In this document: positions 15,893-37,800 of the stretch, piece by piece | Layout of the letters: every line of letters begins with the position of its first letter | How positions within the stretch are numbered: position 1 is the stretch's first letter | Source: Prolixibacteraceae bacterium | Lineage (GTDB): Bacteria; Bacteroidota; Bacteroidia; Bacteroidales; Prolixibacteraceae | Assembly (NCBI GenBank): GCA_019856515.1 | Contig: CP082230.1 | Coordinates: 1,860,001-1,924,000, forward strand | Length of the DNA: 64,000 nt | Direction: 5' to 3' | Notes under the pieces: model-generated | The model's database searches: none | Told to the model about the DNA's origin: nothing | What the model saw: only the letters and a program-made list of their open reading frames with translations | Position numbers and translations under genes: made by a program

Positions 15893-15921
15893 AAAAAAGG
15901 ACAGCACCACCTGTCCTTTTT
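15893..15921 (+). terminator. Intrinsic terminator after the small membrane protein gene
   Basis: AAGGACAG (15897-15904) pairs with CTGTCCTT (15911-15918), loop CACCAC, followed by T residues. Confidence 0.85.
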
Positions 15922-16177
15922 ACTGAACAATAAAACCAACAAATTCAAATAATGAATCCTAAACTACACTCATTTAGTCTCACTTTATAAGGAAAACAAC
16001 TGTTGGTAAAATAAGTTCATACAAAAGGTGCTTTTTTTTATTTTTTTTCTCCGCCCTATACTTCATCCCCTCCAGCAACTTCAAAAACAAACACGGACAA
16101 CCTGCCCCAACACCCTAAACGCAAATAGAATACCATACGAATATTACTACCATATTCACTGAAAGGGAAATCGAACA

Positions 16178-17127: not shown

Positions 17128-17847
17128 CTAATTCAACAAACGAAAGCCATTATGATAGGTATCAATTCTTAAAACCTTGCCTGTTGGATCGAAAACATAC
17201 CATTGTCCAGTTTTACTACCATCCTTAAATGCCCCTCGTTCTTTAAGCTTTCCTGTATCATAATAGTAATCTAAATAAAAACCTGTTCCTTGAACAAATG
17301 CTCCTGTTTTCTGTCCTAATTTGCGATCATAGTATTTATTCTCAGAAATCAATTGACCTTTTTGGATAAAACGTATTGATGAAGGCAAATCACCTCCATA
17401 GCTTGCTCTTAGAATTTCTCCTTGTAGATTATATACAAAATAGTCTCCATCCAATAGTCCATTACGATAGTTTAACTTCTGCACAACGACATGTTTGCGT
17501 TTGATAGTATATACTTCTTTTGTCCATGCACCATCTCGCTTCCCATCTTTTATCTTTCCGCTAATCCATCCATAAACTCGATTCTTCTCTTCCAACTTGG
17601 TTAAATATATATACACTACGGCATTCAACTTCGTCGAATCCAGATTAAGGTACAAACCTTGATGAATTAGAAATAGAGGAGCATCTCTGTTTATTTCATT
17701 TAAATTATAATCCAATACATGAAGGCGTGGCAAAGACCTATTTTCCTTCTCTACAGCCTTATTTCTCTGCTTCTTTACCCTATGATCTCGTGCCGATAAC
17801 GAGAATGTTAGAAGACTTAATATGATTACGGCGAATATATGCTTCAT
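17128..17847 (-). CDS. Secreted MORN_2-repeat protein, paralogue 1
   Basis: 239 residues. A signal peptide (residues 1-18, AVIILSLLTFSLSARD) is followed by a Lys/Arg-rich stretch and then repeats of the MORN-variant type: NGLLDGDYFVYNLQGEILRA, GTGFYLDYYYDTGKLKERGA and GSKTGQWYVFDPTGKVLRID. Such repeats are common in Bacteroidota (YwqK-like proteins), where function is mostly unknown; they usually act as binding or surface modules. It is the last of three tandem paralogues with the same repeat layout, each separately exported. It is 20 bases downstream of paralogue 2, so co-transcription is likely. Confidence 0.75.
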   Translation of the reverse strand: MKHIFAVIILSLLTFSLSARDHRVKKQRNKAVEKENRSLPRLHVLDYNLNEINRDAPLFLIHQGLYLNLDSTKLNAVVYIYLTKLEEKNRVYGWISGKIKDGKRDGAWTKEVYTIKRKHVVVQKLNYRNGLLDGDYFVYNLQGEILRASYGGDLPSSIRFIQKGQLISENKYYDRKLGQKTGAFVQGTGFYLDYYYDTGKLKERGAFKDGSKTGQWYVFDPTGKVLRIDTYHNGFRLLN

Positions 17848-17867
17848 AATGCGATTATTACACTTTA

Positions 17868-18503
17868 TTAAACTCCTGTAAGAGATAAGCCATCTCTATA
17901 AACATCCTCTTTAAGTAGTTCTCCTTTTTCACTGTAATAAGACCAACGACCATCTCGTTTCCCTTTATGTAAACGCCCTTTCACCTTCACAACTCCACTT
18001 TCGGGATAATAATCAAGATACAAACCCGTACCACGATTAAAAGTTAAAGTATCAATTATTTCGCCCTTTGAATTATACAAATAGCTTGCTCCATCCAACA
18101 TGTTAAAGAAATAATTCATTTTCTTAACAACAATCAGATCACCATTGATAAAATGATAGATCTGCCAAAGTCCATTTCTCATTCCATGATAAAGCTCTCC
18201 ACAAACACAACCACGCCTACTATCACCTATCACACTGTTTCCATCGGGGATAACGGATCTTGGTAAAACATTCTGTTTAACATCAATAATTATATCTCCA
18301 TTCGCTAAAGTTGAATCTTTCCAAACATCGATAAAGGTTGAACCTTCTAATGCTAGAAGTGTCTCTTTACAACCAAATGTTGCTCGAAAATCATAATCAT
18401 TCACATTATAGTAATAATATCCACTATTTATTGAATATTTACTTTGAGGAAAACAAACAAATACAATATGAATTAACATGAATGTCAAAACTAAATACTT
18501 CAT
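17868..18503 (-). CDS. Secreted MORN_2-repeat protein, paralogue 2
   Basis: 211 residues with a signal peptide (about 1-18, LVLTFMLIHIVFVCFPQS). The MORN-type repeats are RNGLWQIYHFINGDLIVVKK, DGASYLYNSKGEIIDTL, GTGLYLDYYPESGVVKVKGR and KRDGRWSYYSEKGELLKED. It is shorter than its neighbours at the front and has a Cys pair in RRGCVCGELYHG. It lies directly upstream of paralogue 1 and shares the same repeat order, so it arose by tandem duplication. No catalytic motif was seen. Confidence 0.72.
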   Translation of the reverse strand: MKYLVLTFMLIHIVFVCFPQSKYSINSGYYYYNVNDYDFRATFGCKETLLALEGSTFIDVWKDSTLANGDIIIDVKQNVLPRSVIPDGNSVIGDSRRGCVCGELYHGMRNGLWQIYHFINGDLIVVKKMNYFFNMLDGASYLYNSKGEIIDTLTFNRGTGLYLDYYPESGVVKVKGRLHKGKRDGRWSYYSEKGELLKEDVYRDGLSLTGV

Positions 18504-18585
18504 AGTTATTCTGATTTAATTAAATATTACATCTACTTTAGACACAAACATCCTCTCTTTACAAAGAACAAATCCATTTGCAATA

Positions 18586-18605
18586 TGTGCCTACTGATTG
18601 ACACA
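18586..18605. repeat. Decayed GTGCC-palindrome between MORN genes 2 and 3
   Basis: TGTGCCTACTGATTGACACA matches the consensus TGTGCCAATTCATTGGCACA of the palindrome at 16993 at 16 of 20 positions and keeps the dyad ends TGTG/CACA. Confidence 0.5.
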
Positions 18606-18688
18606 ACGAACTTGGATACAAATATTAAACTCCTCCACTGAATATATGATGTTTGCTAGGTTGTAATTACCGAAATGATACCGTTGCG

Positions 18689-19462
18689 CTAATCAAAGGG
18701 ATCTAAATTTGTAATTAGAATCCCATTGGAATATCTTTCTCTAAACAGCAATTCACCATCTTTTGCATAATAAGACCAAATTCCATCTCTTTTACCCCGA
18801 AAGAGACTCCCTGATATTTTAAGCCTTCCTGTATCATAATAGTAATCCTTATAAGGCCCTGTTCCTTTATGAAAACGGCTTACTACTTTCTTTGAGACAG
18901 GAAGATTACTCTCATCTAATACTGTTTCATATGACCAATTCAAGATATCTGCTCTTAAATTATAGACGATATAATCTCCATCTAACAATCCATTTTTATA
19001 ACTCATTCTTTTTACAACATAGCTATGAATGTTAAAATACACCGTTTTTGTCCAAACGCCCTCTCTTCGTCCATCAATAATATTGCCTTCTAACTCCCCA
19101 ATCATTGAATATACTTTCTCAACCACGGATGTATCGTCATCATCATGAAGAGTTATCATTAAATAGCGATTTAATGGTACCTCTGTTTCTGAATCTATCA
19201 TCTGACCACATTCATTAAAAGAAACCTTAATGCTATCTTCAAATGAAATCATAGAATAATCATCTAAATACAAAGAGGGATTAACTCTGGATTCCTCAAA
19301 ATCTGGAAATAAATCTAATATCATCATCGGTTCATCAAGAGAGTCTTTAATAATCATCTCTGATTCACCTTGACTCTCATTATCTTGCACCGTTTTTATA
19401 GAGATACATTGAGTAATAGATAAAGCAATCAATAGGGGGGCTCTCATATATGTTAAACGCAT
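18689..19462 (-). CDS. Envelope MORN_2-repeat protein, paralogue 3
   Basis: 257 residues with a hydrophobic N terminus (LTYMRAPLLIALSITQC). This could be a signal peptide or a poor lipoprotein signal, since Gln before Cys is unusual. An acidic region (about 25-90) follows, then MORN-type repeats: GRREGVWTKTVYFNIHSYVV, NGLLDGDYIVYNLRADIL, GTGPYKDYYYDTGRLKISGS and KRDGIWSYYAKDGELLFRE. ATG at 19462 is preferred to a TTG at 19483, because a -7 promoter box (19481-19488) overlaps that TTG. It is the first of the three tandem paralogues. Confidence 0.72.
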   Translation of the reverse strand: MRLTYMRAPLLIALSITQCISIKTVQDNESQGESEMIIKDSLDEPMMILDLFPDFEESRVNPSLYLDDYSMISFEDSIKVSFNECGQMIDSETEVPLNRYLMITLHDDDDTSVVEKVYSMIGELEGNIIDGRREGVWTKTVYFNIHSYVVKRMSYKNGLLDGDYIVYNLRADILNWSYETVLDESNLPVSKKVVSRFHKGTGPYKDYYYDTGRLKISGSLFRGKRDGIWSYYAKDGELLFRERYSNGILITNLDPFD

Positions 19463-19480
19463 TAATTTAACAAATGAAAA

Positions 19481-19488
19481 CAAACATA
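19481..19488 (-). promoter_or_regulatory. Promoter -7 box for MORN paralogue 3
   Basis: Minus-strand TATGTTTG fits TAnnTTTG. A GTTG lies 17 nt further upstream (19506-19509). A transcript from here starts near 19475 and supports the ATG at 19462. Confidence 0.4.
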
Positions 19489-19627: not shown

Positions 19628-19768
19628 AGCGGTTGGCGGAGACCTATTAATATCTATGGAAATAATAACAATCACACCTGTAGTATGTAGTAGGACAGTC
19701 TTTGGGTATCGTAATTGCTATCAATAAGTTTTAAAGCCAGAATAGTCATTTCACCTAAAGTTTAGAGC

Positions 19769-19860
19769 AAAAAAAAAGGACAGAGTCCCCACTCTATCCT
19801 TTCAAACCTAACTAACTAAACCAATAAAACTAACTAAATCCAAACCTATGAATTTAAACA
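19769..19860 (-). ncRNA. Candidate small RNA, array member 1
   Basis: Read on the minus strand: TTTG (19897-19894), exactly 20 nt, TATATTTG (19873-19866), then an approximately 92-nt transcript ending in a hairpin and nine U. The terminator stem is GGATAGAGT/ACTCTGTCC with loop GGGG. One pair is a G-U on this strand but a C-A mismatch on the plus strand, which indicates that the minus strand is the one transcribed. Between position 19845 and the terminator the RNA has a long U/G/A-rich stretch that should be unstructured. It contains TTTTATTGGTTTA, complementary to the sialidase translation start region. Confidence 0.7.
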
Positions 19861-20008
19861 CTATGCAAATATAATGTTTTAAAACACATCTCACAAACTT
19901 TCAAGAAAAAAATGTTTCAAAACAGATAAATAAATTTGCAGTTTAAACCAAGAGATCGAAATATCTTAATCATAATAAGAACAATCCTATTATTTACCAT
20001 ATAGACAC

Positions 20009-20097
20009 AAAAAAAGGATAGAGAATCCTCTATCCTTTCAAACCTAACTAACTAAACCAATAAAACTAACTAAATCCAAACTTATGAATTTAAAACA
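20009..20097 (-). ncRNA. Candidate small RNA, array member 2
   Basis: Minus strand: GTTG (20134-20131), exactly 20 nt, TATATTTG (20110-20103), about 89 nt of transcript, then a perfect stem GGATAGAG/CTCTATCC (20035-20016) and seven U. The core (20041-20080) is almost identical to members 1 and 3. From about 20082 down to the terminator loop the RNA contains no C at all. Confidence 0.72.
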
Positions 20098-20182
20098 CAA
20101 TGCAAATATAGTGTTTTAGAACATACCACACAACTATTTTTCAATAAATGTTTCAAAACACCCTATTTTTTTTTGAAAACAC

Positions 20183-20272
20183 AAAAAAAGGATAGAAATA
20201 CCCTTCTATCCTTTCAAACCTAACTAACTAAACCAATAAAACTAACTAAATCCAAACTTATGAATTTAAACA
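20183..20272 (-). ncRNA. Candidate small RNA, array member 3
   Basis: Minus strand: GTTG (20309-20306), exactly 20 nt, TAAATTTG (20285-20278), about 90 nt, then the stem GGATAGAA/TTCTATCC (20211-20190) and seven U. The stem bases differ from member 2 by compensating changes (A-U for G-C at the loop end), and the loop differs, which supports a selected RNA hairpin. Confidence 0.72.
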
Positions 20273-20376
20273 CACTACAAATTTAAAGATGTGTTACTAC
20301 TTAAACAACTATATGATGTTATTGTTTTATGAACTAAATTTTAAAATAATCTTAAAATGTATTTTAACTTTTTCCA

Positions 20377-20457
20377 AAATGAGAATGCAGCAATATGCTG
20401 CATTCTCTGAAAATCAAACCTATAAAACTAACTAATCCAAATCATTGAATCTAAAAA
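20377..20457 (-). ncRNA. Decayed fourth member of the small RNA array
   Basis: Keeps the core TTAGTTAGTTTTAT and GGTTTGA and a strong but unrelated hairpin (GAGAATGCAGCA/TGCTGCATTCTC, 20381-20407). However, the -7 box is TAAGTGTG (20465-20458), no -33 motif is present and the U tract is only four long. Either a dead copy or one under other control. Confidence 0.4.
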
Positions 20458-20586
20458 CACACTTAAAGTTACATTAACACAATGGGAAAATAGATGACAA
20501 AAACCACCATTTCGAAAAAGTTGACACAATTCATCAAATTACAACCATGCAAAAGTTGTAGTAACCTTTGGACTTAAGTATATATA

Positions 20587-33880: not shown

Positions 33881-34783
33881 ATGAATAGTAAAAAAGATAT
33901 AAACGATTTAGATCAAATCATCCATAAGCTGAATGGATACTACTCTCTTAAACCAATAGGTAAAGAGGGTAGTTCATCGGCTTTATGGGAAAGAATTGAG
34001 AATAAACTGCTACAACAAAGGGTTATTCGTCTAAAACGTTGGAATTATATTGGATGGAGTGCGGCCGTGGTTATTCTAATGATAGGGGTATGGAACATAT
34101 ATAACCATGCAGATGTAGAACCTCAAGCTTTAATTTCAGAAATACAGATAGAGACTAAGATTGGAGAAAAAAACAGTTTTAATCTAAAAGATGGGAGTAA
34201 GATTTCTCTATTACCTAACTCATCAATGACAATTTACGCATCGAACTCAAATACCATAGACTCAGTATATCTTAGTGGAGCTGCAAAATTTCAGATCACT
34301 AAGCGCGAGGAAGATTTTCTTAGAGTTAGAACAAATAATTTCAATATACATGTATTAGGAACAACCTTCTTAGTCGAGGATTTTAAAACGAAGCAAGAGG
34401 CTACAACATCATTAATAGAGGGTAAACTAGCTGTTGCTCCTATTGCCAAAAATAGCAATCACACTTTAATTCTAAACCATGGAGAGAAGGTGATGATTGA
34501 TAAAAGTAACCATGAATACAGCAAACAAGAATTTACTCAAGATGACTTTCTTAAAGCAAAAGGAGTATATCGCTACAAAGACACCCCTCTAAGCGATTAT
34601 ATTTATGAAGTCGAGCAATTCTATGGAGTAAACATAGATATTGCCTCTAAGCTCAAAGATGAATGTTTCACACTTATTATAGACCAAAATAAAGAATTAA
34701 ACGAAGTATTTAAAGACCTCCTTAAAATCGGGAAAATTAAAACACACAAAACTAAAAACAGACACTATCAACTAACAAAGTAA
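33881..34783 (+). CDS. FecR family anti-sigma factor
   Basis: 300 residues. Cytoplasmic N-terminal segment (about 1-45) that holds the sigma factor, one membrane helix (about 50-69, YIGWSAAVVILMIGVWNIY), and a periplasmic FecR domain (about 90-190, with FNLKDGSKISLLPNSSMT and VRTNNFNIHVLGTTFLVEDF) plus a C-terminal DUF4974-like domain (about 225-300, ASKLKDECFTLIIDQNKELN). It would pass the signal from the SusC N-terminal domain to the ECF sigma factor encoded just upstream. Confidence 0.92.
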   Translation: MNSKKDINDLDQIIHKLNGYYSLKPIGKEGSSSALWERIENKLLQQRVIRLKRWNYIGWSAAVVILMIGVWNIYNHADVEPQALISEIQIETKIGEKNSFNLKDGSKISLLPNSSMTIYASNSNTIDSVYLSGAAKFQITKREEDFLRVRTNNFNIHVLGTTFLVEDFKTKQEATTSLIEGKLAVAPIAKNSNHTLILNHGEKVMIDKSNHEYSKQEFTQDDFLKAKGVYRYKDTPLSDYIYEVEQFYGVNIDIASKLKDECFTLIIDQNKELNEVFKDLLKIGKIKTHKTKNRHYQLTK

Positions 34784-34823
34784 ACAAACACCAATAAGTT
34801 AACTAAATAAAACGAACTAAACT
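34784..34823 (+). promoter_or_regulatory. susC leader, predicted small-RNA target
   Basis: The 40 nt before the susC ATG contain ACCAATAA (34790-34797), TAACTAAAT (34800-34808) and, with the start codon, CTATGAA (34822-34828). All three blocks, in this order and with similar spacing, are complementary to the candidate small RNAs at 19769-20272. Confidence 0.45.
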
Positions 34824-37800
34824 ATGAAGCAAGAAGGACCTAAGTCTTTTCTTCATCGAAGATTTACAAATGCTTCTTCGATGTTGAAAAGTACCATCTG
34901 TGTTGGGGCAATGGTACTATCATCTTTTAATACATCAGCAGCTGTGTTAGAGGAAGATGTGGATATTAATCTTAAGAATAAGCCTTTAATTGAATTTTTC
35001 CAGGCGATAGAACAACAAACAGAATATGTGTTTGTATATAAGACCAGCACTATAAACTCAAACAGAAAGATCTCTCTTGATGTTAAAGGCGAAGAGCTGA
35101 AAGATGTTTTGGACGAAATGCTTGATCAAAATAATCTTACTTATACATTGGAAAATAATAAGATTATTATCTCTGAGAATAATAGTTCGATTAATACCCA
35201 AGCCACACAAGCATCAAATAAACTAGTAATAAAGGGTAGCGTCGTGGATGATCAAGGAACACCGCTTCCTGGAGCAACACTTGTAATAAAGGGTACGACA
35301 CAAGGAACAATTACCGATTTTGATGGTAATTTCTCCCTAACGAATGTTCCCAAAGGAGCGACTATTGTTTTTTCTTATGTTGGGATGAGTTCTAAAGAGG
35401 TTATTGCAGATAAAACAAATTTCAAGATTCAATTAGAGAGTGATGCTGTTAATCTTCAAGAGGTGGTAGCCATAGGTTATGGTGTACAGAAGAAGGTGAA
35501 CCTGACAGGGTCAGTTGCTTCAATTAAATCTGAAGAGATACTAAAAACAAAAACAGCAAATATTACCAACTCCATGGTAGGTAAAGTCCCTGGGTTACTA
35601 TCAGTACAACGAAGTGGACAACCAGGAGAGGATGCAGCACAAATATCAATCCGTGGTAATTCGTCTCTAGGAAACAATGGCGCTTTAGTAGTTGTAGATG
35701 GGGTAGTTAGGGATGGTTTCAACCAAATCGATCCAAATATGATCGAAACTGTAACTGTCTTGAAAGATGCTGCTGCAACTTCTGTTTATGGTGTTCGTGC
35801 CTCAAATGGTGTAATTCTTGTTACGACTAAAAAAGGTAAAGAAGGAAAAACTTCTGTTTCATATTCTGGTTCATACGGAGTACAGACACCAACAAAAGTT
35901 CCTGAATTGATGGATGCTTATACTTATGCGAGTAACATAAATCAGGCATTTATTAATGAAGGTGATGCACCTAGGTATACTGACGAAGATCTACAGAAAT
36001 TTAAAGAAGGGACAGAACCAGGATATCAAAGCACCAATTGGTGGGATGAAACTTTTGATAAACTTGCACCTATTTCTCAGCATAACTTATCTGTTACAGG
36101 AGGTAGTAAAAAAAGCAACTATTATATATCCCTTGGAATGTTAGATCAAAAAGGAATGTATGAAACGAGTTGGTTCAAAAGATATAATTTAAGATCTAAT
36201 CTAGAGACTAAAATTAGTGACGATCTAAAGTTAAATTTAAATCTAGCAGGAAGAATTGAAGAGACAAGTAATTCAGGATCGGGGACATATGCAATTTTCT
36301 ATGGCGCATTAAGAGCTTGGCCAACCATGCCAACAACTCATCCAGATGGTAAAGTAGCATGGAGTGGTACACCAACGAATTCAGTATATGATGCAACAGA
36401 AACTGGATATGATAAAAGAACAAAAAACACATTCCAAAGTTCATTGTCTTTAGATTACAATATTTCAAAAATTAAGGGTTTGCATGCAAAAGCTTTGGTT
36501 GCATATGATGCGACGTTAACACCTAAAAAGAAGTTTGTACAACCATACAATTACTATATCAAAAACACGGATGGTACGTTTGATGAAAAAGCTGTTGGGA
36601 ACAAAACGACACTAAAAGAAACCTTCAATCAAAATAAAAGATTGACTACTCAATTATCATTAAACTACAATAGAACATTTGGATCACATGAGTTATCTGG
36701 ACTTCTTTTATGGGAGACGTTTCAATCTGACTCAAATAATTTTAATGCCTATAGAGAGAATGGTTTCCTTTCAAGTACACTTGACCAAATGTTTGCAGGA
36801 GGTGACCTAAATAAGAATAATGGTGGTAGTGCTAAAGAAGCAGGGCGACTAGGATATGTCGGTCGATTAACATATAACTACAAGAGTAAGTATTTATTTG
36901 AAACGAACTTTAGATATGATGGTTCATTTAATTTCCCAAATGGAAATAAATGGGGATTCTTCCCTTCAGTGTCTGCAGGATGGAGAGTATCTGAAGAAAG
37001 TTTTATTAAAGACAATTTCAGTGGAATAGACAATTTAAAGCTTAGATCTTCAATGGGTAAATCTGGTAACGACAACATTCCTCAATACAATTTTATCGGA
37101 GGATATAGTGTATACAGTGGTTCGGTTATCGGGGATACATTCTATAAAGGACTAAGAGAGTCATTAACACCAAATCCATTTATTACATGGGAAACATCAA
37201 CAAATTTTGATGTGGGTATTGATCTATCTTTATGGCAGGGTAAATTAACTTTAGAAGCAAACTATTTTTACAAAAACACAACAGATATACTCGTAAAAAG
37301 AGATGCTGAAGTTCCATTAACTTATGGAGGAAAACTACCTGTTGAAAATCTAGGTGAGACTGAAAATTCGGGTTATGAGTTTGTATTAGGTCATAATGGT
37401 AAAATTGGTGATCTAACCTACAATATAAATGGTAATTTTACTTTTGCAAGAAATAAAGTTATTGAGAAAGCAGAACCTAGTGATGTCCCTGATCGAATAA
37501 AAAGAACTGGTAGACCAATGAATCAATTTTATGGACTACAAGCTTTAGGGTTATTCCAAACGGAAGAGGAAATCCAAGACTGGGCTGATCAAAATGGTAA
37601 TAAAAACAAGGGAATAAAGCCTGGTGATATTAAATATCAAGATTTCAATAATGATGGTAAGATTAATGGAGAGGATATTCATTGTATCGGTAAAAGCTTC
37701 TTCCCAGAGATTAATTATGGTGTAAATCTTTCTCTTGCATATAAAGGTTTTGACATGTCTGTTTTCTTTCAAGGCGCATCAAACTTTGTTACTTACCTTG

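Follow-up and report, generated by a model that had tools for sequence, protein, structure and literature searches.

SusC-type uptake is the route by which polysaccharides are imported in these bacteria. In Bacteroides thetaiotaomicron, susC translation is repressed in vitro and in vivo by FopS (RF04319, BTncRNA_FopS), a set of paralogous small RNAs (sRNAs) which are bound by the RRM protein RbpB, itself an antagonist of FopS, and whose transcriptional regulator is described as unknown in PMC11697453. The same source names Qrr, LhrC and the Cia-dependent sRNAs as examples of multicopy sRNAs (PMC11697453), and GibS (RF04182), a further Bacteroides sRNA, targets start codons as well (PMC7366714). 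In this study, we followed up a preliminary description of a tandem sRNA family on the minus strand of the window, i.e. the whole 64,000-nt stretch of Prolixibacteraceae DNA analysed here, which had left undecided whether this family is related to the multicopy sRNAs of Bacteroides or new.

Architecture of the array

The array of three minus-strand sRNA cassettes is real, at the place and with the parts that had been claimed. In A, B and C alike, a TTTG or GTTG box is followed by a spacer of exactly the predicted 20 nt, TAnnTTTG, four bases, a GTGTTT start, a body which is poor in C and spans about 60 nt, and a hairpin that runs into a stretch of T, so that each copy carries a Bacteroidota-type (sigma-ABfr type) promoter TTTG/GTTG-N20-TAnnTTTG; we infer that the cassettes are transcribed. 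The features, with a fourth copy (D) and a more distant unit (E), are:

19770..19861, minus strand: sRNA copy A, predicted transcript from GTGTTT to the T run (covariance model match 1.9e-11)
19774..19803, minus strand: terminator hairpin of copy A
19866..19897, minus strand: promoter of copy A, TTTG-N20-TATATTTG
20008..20098, minus strand: sRNA copy B (covariance model match 2.6e-12)
20012..20039, minus strand: terminator hairpin of copy B
20103..20134, minus strand: promoter of copy B, GTTG-N20-TATATTTG
20182..20273, minus strand: sRNA copy C (covariance model match 1.0e-10)
20186..20215, minus strand: terminator hairpin of copy C
20278..20309, minus strand: promoter of copy C, GTTG-N20-TAAATTTG
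20377..20462, minus strand: copy D, divergent paralogue whose 5' seed differs and which lacks a canonical -7 box
20381..20407, minus strand: hairpin of copy D, perfect 12-bp stem, weak T tract
15893..15985, minus strand: unit E, weak similarity to the array family (nhmmer 4e-5)

Searched against its own genome, copy A matched B over 109 bases (E 4e-37) and C over 104 bases (E 3e-32), and the cores of the three copies are indeed nearly identical, with differing hairpin loops and promoter upstreams. The body is, as described, almost free of C, with a single one among the first 58 nt in every copy from A to C. The expectation that it would stay single-stranded held in part, since a 78-nt piece of copy A, folded without the 3' half of the terminator, was no more stable than shuffled sequences, but all three copies have a predicted 9-bp hairpin, rich in A/U, close to the 5' end. 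The array RNA thus has a FopS-like layout, a C-poor 5' part with this weak predicted hairpin alone, followed by a covarying intrinsic terminator. Over 34 homologues, 98.4% of the cells of the terminator stem pair, compared to 39-73% in slid versions, and the compensated changes first noticed among the three copies recur, both sides having changed in 38 cells versus 12.9 in shuffles. A core hairpin proposed by RNAalifold was not counted as evidence, its pairs being invariant or changed on one side only.

The terminator also bears on the strand. In the stem, 33 G–U cells would become A–C on the plus strand, while A–C cells on the minus strand number 4, which bears out the earlier argument from a single such pair. 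That the array is a repeat at the DNA level, or a leader element of the plus strand, with no transcription from the minus strand, a reading to which the resemblance of the antisense text to a start region (AAACCTATGAA) lends some colour, is highly improbable in view of these cells, of the promoter on one side and of the covarying, U-tailed terminator on the other. A plus-strand leader of a full gene, the pattern which the preliminary description had named as speaking against sRNA genes, was not seen either, the single plus-strand ORF of at least 40 aa over the array being an unsupported 48-aa frame at 20289-20435. Equally little credence can be given to translated micro-ORFs in place of a non-coding RNA: copy A is readable, by eye, as a GTG-started frame of 17 codons, but A, B and C contain no ATG, and single-base length changes occur within the core of homologues (L026:1770-1868, L033:1490-1580, L027:1242-1340).

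Copy D had been called decayed, with its promoter lost. No canonical promoter is present (TAACTTTA), but since its 50-nt core is identical in four genomes of the genus (G000, the home genome, to G003) in which both flanks have diverged, it is not decayed; judged by this conservation and by paired changes in its hairpin across the same genomes (by reading), it is a conserved divergent paralogue. Unit E, of which about 90 nt are identical to G002, the only relative compared, beside diverged flanks, is a probable further member of the family. Between the array and unit E, at 17128-19483 on the minus strand, lie three adjacent ORFs that look secreted and resemble one another in their C-terminal repeats (of the KRDGxWxYY type, by eye); these ORFs are missing at the same place in G002, and a Pfam search with one of them gave no match.

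Distribution and genomic context

By BLASTN, relatives were found in 32 of 61 genomes, all from one family (32 of the 37 Prolixibacteraceae and none of the 24 others). A covariance model, whose construction the preliminary description had suggested and which we built from 34 copies, matched in 135 of 140 Prolixibacteraceae genomes (101 of the 103 of good quality, 23 of 23 genera), with 452 matches in total, a median of 3 and a maximum of 8 per genome. In 294 other genomes of the class it gave three weak matches, two of which (G289, G424) were on sight not accepted as genuine and are possibly due to chance. The third, a tandem sRNA pair in a genome of another family (G413:C26:53518-54124; L353, L357), looks like a genuine intermediate between FopS and the array family. 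The 61 stretches returned by an exact-pattern scan of genome contigs belonged either to Prolixibacteraceae genera or to MAGs that carry the label Prolixibacteraceae, Bacteroidales or Bacteroidota. No Rfam family matches the array, look-alikes within the window at E 0.5-9.4 being regarded as chance, and we found no report of this sRNA family in the openly accessible literature.

Array loci were read in 23 Prolixibacteraceae genomes, in 10 of which (8 genera) the array follows nfeD-floA in the same orientation, at a distance of 68-238 nt; clpS stands in front of nfeD-floA in 8 of these 10, and the array of G014 follows clpS, these neighbours being named from blastp clusters and from Pfam matches of one representative set. 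The array of G002 and G003 comes after PAD_porph (agmatine-deiminase-like), carbon-nitrogen hydrolase and SEC-C genes, from which it is separated in the window by an intervening BNR-repeat (sialidase-like) gene, and the remaining genomes carry their arrays at other places. These varied loci fit a trans-acting RNA better than a cis element. The claim of a paralogous minus-strand sRNA family in tandem is thus well supported by its near-universal occurrence, conserved core and covarying terminator, whereas expansion in place describes it only partially, as the arrays occupy several unrelated loci across Prolixibacteraceae.

Two further groups of loci were observed. A second sRNA-like relative with the seed TTCATAAGTTTAGGTTTAGTT is present once or twice per genome (G029:C1:2045350, G009:C3:315824 and 316024, G032:C1:4742038, G033:C1:63906, G016:C11:30666, G016:C13:60668, G023:C1:36251, G012:C80:15391), and several of these loci adjoin one conserved gene for a protein of about 248 aa (cluster c8), of which one tested example had no Pfam match. 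The home genome itself contains a second tandem locus (L021:1484-2400, minus strand, corresponding to G000:C1:3964983-3965899) with seven TTTCATAGATTT seeds, in which Tandem Repeats Finder counts 4.3 units of 120 nt; each unit has strong hairpins and there are few promoter-like boxes between the units, as if several sRNAs shared one precursor.

Complementarity to susC start regions

The SusC model TIGR04056 has 57 matches in the home genome, and pairing was computed for the best-scoring 30 of these, with the first in-frame ATG taken automatically as start. The controls were 124 genes preceded by a long gap, drawn from scattered stretches totalling 400 kb, and 72 in-operon genes. Relative to dinucleotide-shuffled sRNAs, the mean z of the duplexes was -1.64 at susC starts, compared to -0.03 at leader genes (p 6e-9) and -0.07 at in-operon genes, and the difference between susC and leader genes was retained with shuffled mRNA windows (p 3e-9). 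The reversed sRNA kept a small susC bias (p 0.03 and 0.02), so that leader composition explains part of the signal. FopS RNA, used as a control on the same starts, gave none (p 0.38 and 0.30), and a unit of the second tandem locus L021 also fitted susC starts (p 3e-6). A first run against 254 unfiltered genes had yielded p 7e-10, and the effect was absent when windows at +150 or -150 were used. In windows of 40 nt the signal was confined to -20 (z -1.13) and 0 (-1.25) and was not seen at -40 (-0.15) or +20 (0.35). When the sRNA was divided into four overlapping segments, nt 9-34 (AUUCAUAGGUUUGGAUUUAGUUAGUU) gave the strongest signal (p 1.5e-6; the others p 2e-5 to 0.004), and the words AACTAAA, AAACTAA and TAACTAA, complementary to the array RNA, are enriched in susC leaders. 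As computed, the complementarity thus appears specific to susC starts, and it recurred in a second genome, G032, with its own sRNA (30 of 61 matches against 28 controls, p 8e-4). Swapping the sRNAs of G000 and G032 revealed no preference for own targets, so that seed-target co-evolution between the two was dropped as not significant (p 0.19).

One predicted target lies in the window, and its duplex is the second best of the 30:

34764..34843, plus strand: susC start region (-60 to +20) with the ATG at 34824, predicted target (duplex -33.7 kcal/mol, z -3.2)

Among the 254 control genes, the best duplex reached -35.6 kcal/mol at the start of a 929-aa protein that is polysaccharide-lyase-like by eye, followed by a glutamate-5-kinase-like and a GH29 fucosidase-like gene (names likewise by eye). 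The first and third of these would suit a narrow sRNA with one or few non-susC targets, such as a polysaccharide lyase or a fucosidase, the susC signal then reflecting a shared leader style. However, taken together the susC genes stand apart from leader genes, and do so in two genomes, which makes this a quite improbable reading. Near-perfect antisense targeting was also considered and rejected: 21-nt patterns with up to three mismatches, searched in 10 genomes, returned the arrays, the second, mostly single-copy relative and scattered weak matches, and in G000 the array alone.

Promoter palindrome and candidate regulator

Two of the three home promoters contain a palindrome, TGTT-N4-AACA, as a candidate operator:

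19875..19886, no strand assigned: palindrome adjoining the -7 box of copy A, candidate operator
19913..19924, no strand assigned: second, upstream palindrome of copy A
20112..20123, no strand assigned: palindrome adjoining the -7 box of copy B
20149..20160, no strand assigned: second, upstream palindrome of copy B

Family-wide, 55 copies were collected, of which 4 lacked a recognisable core; a -7 box was present in 48 of the other 51, and these 48 form the promoter set, with TTG at -33 in 14 of them. The palindrome, degenerate at two bases, occurs in 33 of the 48, compared to 0.7 expected and at most 4 in 200 shuffles, where the counts come from related copies and are not independent events. 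Two positions are used, one adjoining the -7 box and the other some 50-55 nt upstream; A and B carry the palindrome at both, C at neither. FopS promoters carry the same palindrome in 9 of 14 cases (from 14 of the 15 matches over cut-off), compared to 0.14 expected and at most 2 in 500 shuffles; eight of the nine sites fall between -21 and -25, and the ninth is at -54. A scan for strict matches to operator plus promoter covered 665 kb of the home genome and 871 kb from relatives, and all 27 matches fell at these sRNA loci. The home-genome sample is the fairer test of specificity here, as the relatives' stretches were mostly chosen around sRNAs. Four of the 27 are not directed towards the beginning of an sRNA, and two of these four arise from reading the same palindrome on the opposite strand. 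This pattern suggests that a regulator probably acts at TGTT-N4-AACA in most promoters of the family.

In other genera, array promoters contain a direct repeat with an 11-bp period, TTAAC-N6-TTAAC, which as a relaxed pattern occurs in 20 of the 48 promoters (0.3 expected), all outside the home genus (e.g. L036, L032, L043). Direct repeats of this period are typical of OmpR/PhoB-type regulators. A strict 17-base PhoB-type box had one match in 6 genomes and nothing decisive emerged from the literature, and a PhoB-type assignment was not adopted.

Proposed function and relation to known sRNAs

We consider it likely that the array acts as a brake on SusC-type transporters which resembles FopS and has been amplified in tandem, with a regulator acting at its promoters. 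The computational results behind this model are the conserved, family-wide multicopy sRNA genes, their promoters, the covarying terminator, the palindrome enrichment and the complementarity to susC starts. The array would encode trans-acting RNAs of about 90 nt, which would pair through their C-poor 5' two thirds, most strongly through nt 9-34, with the start regions of many susC-like mRNAs; such pairing would block ribosome entry and, like FopS, put a brake on polysaccharide uptake. Because each copy has its own promoter and terminator, tandem copies would add dosage and could be switched separately, with a regulator at the palindrome controlling most promoters of the family. Both repression as the outcome and a regulator dedicated to these genes are what we infer. 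A more far-reaching version remains tentative and strikes us as rather doubtful: a Prolixibacteraceae-wide brake of 1-8 sRNA copies which carry the susC start consensus in negative, governed by one dedicated TGTT-N4-AACA regulator with few other targets, the same regulator-sRNA module standing behind FopS, no RbpB antagonist in the home genus, and the seven-seed tandem locus as a second element fitting susC starts. If the model is true, the control of susC translation by sRNAs predates Bacteroides and extends beyond it, being near-universal in one family with sequence links to FopS. The shared palindrome would then give a specific starting point for finding the transcriptional regulator of FopS, and related species, with their copy numbers of 1 to 8, would form a natural dosage series in which to ask why sRNAs become multicopy.

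The binding of FopS RNAs by RbpB (PMC11697453) raises the question of a protein decoy, in which the UUAGUUAG body would mainly sequester an RNA-binding protein in a CsrB-like manner, the susC complementarity being secondary. The core, with 36 invariant columns over 34 copies, is conserved far beyond the needs of one target, and the number of UUUAGUUAG repeats differs between copies, both of which a decoy would accommodate. Nonetheless, an RRM_1 search of the home genome gave no match, so that this genome lacks the RbpB arm of the FopS circuit, and a decoy has no need of specificity for susC start codons; we regard it as unlikely. RRM_1 matches do exist elsewhere (1-3 in G029, G032, G023 and G055; the three Prolixibacteraceae genomes tested besides the home genome have 2-3), and binding or antagonism by RbpB appears unlikely for the home genome in particular.

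As to descent, the preliminary question of related or new can be narrowed. The RF04319 model does not match window positions 19700-20560 even at E 10; outside Prolixibacteraceae it passes its cut-off in 5 of 24 genomes, and inside in 0 of 37, where it leaves two matches below cut-off (G029, G032) and none in G000. The GibS model exceeds its cut-off in 0 of 61 genomes and has no match in G000 at E 1e-3. Nevertheless, when copy A was aligned with FopS, which has its R1 seed GUGUUUUUCAU(A/G)GUAUUAGAU at the 5' end, 2 of 300 shuffles did as well; against the G413 pair 1 did, and against the second G032 locus none. The latter two align with FopS with 0 and 0 of 300 shuffles as good. The seed of the G032 array does not follow (161 of 300 as good), and an L021 unit has no resemblance to FopS (94 of 300). 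The array RNA thus looks like a divergent relative of Bacteroides FopS and GibS outside both Rfam models, and common descent with FopS is likely, although the likeness may also reflect convergence on start codons.

By the model test no member of RF04319, the array RNA would nonetheless work like FopS, with which it shares multiple copies, an own TAnnTTTG promoter, the GTGTTT start, a C-poor 5' region before the terminator, what looks like a UUCAU(A/G)G seed facing the start codon, predicted targets at susC start regions and the TGTT-N4-AACA palindrome at many promoters. It differs from FopS in its longer body with UUAGUUAG repeats, in the palindrome lying elsewhere in the promoter and in a home genome without RRM protein; its family is furthermore tandem, a word absent from the main text of the FopS paper (PMC11697453). 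With GibS, copy A has GUGUUU and UUCAUAG at the 5' end in common, 10 of 300 shuffles aligning as well, and the array RNA would share its start-codon-targeting mode, in contrast to which GibS is an RNA of 145 nt with a second seed, R2, and inner hairpins (PMC7366714).

The multicopy sRNAs Qrr, LhrC and the Cia-dependent sRNAs stem from other phyla and are not known to be related to the array in sequence or promoters. What they have in common with it is an organisation in several near-identical copies with overlapping targets (PMC11697453).
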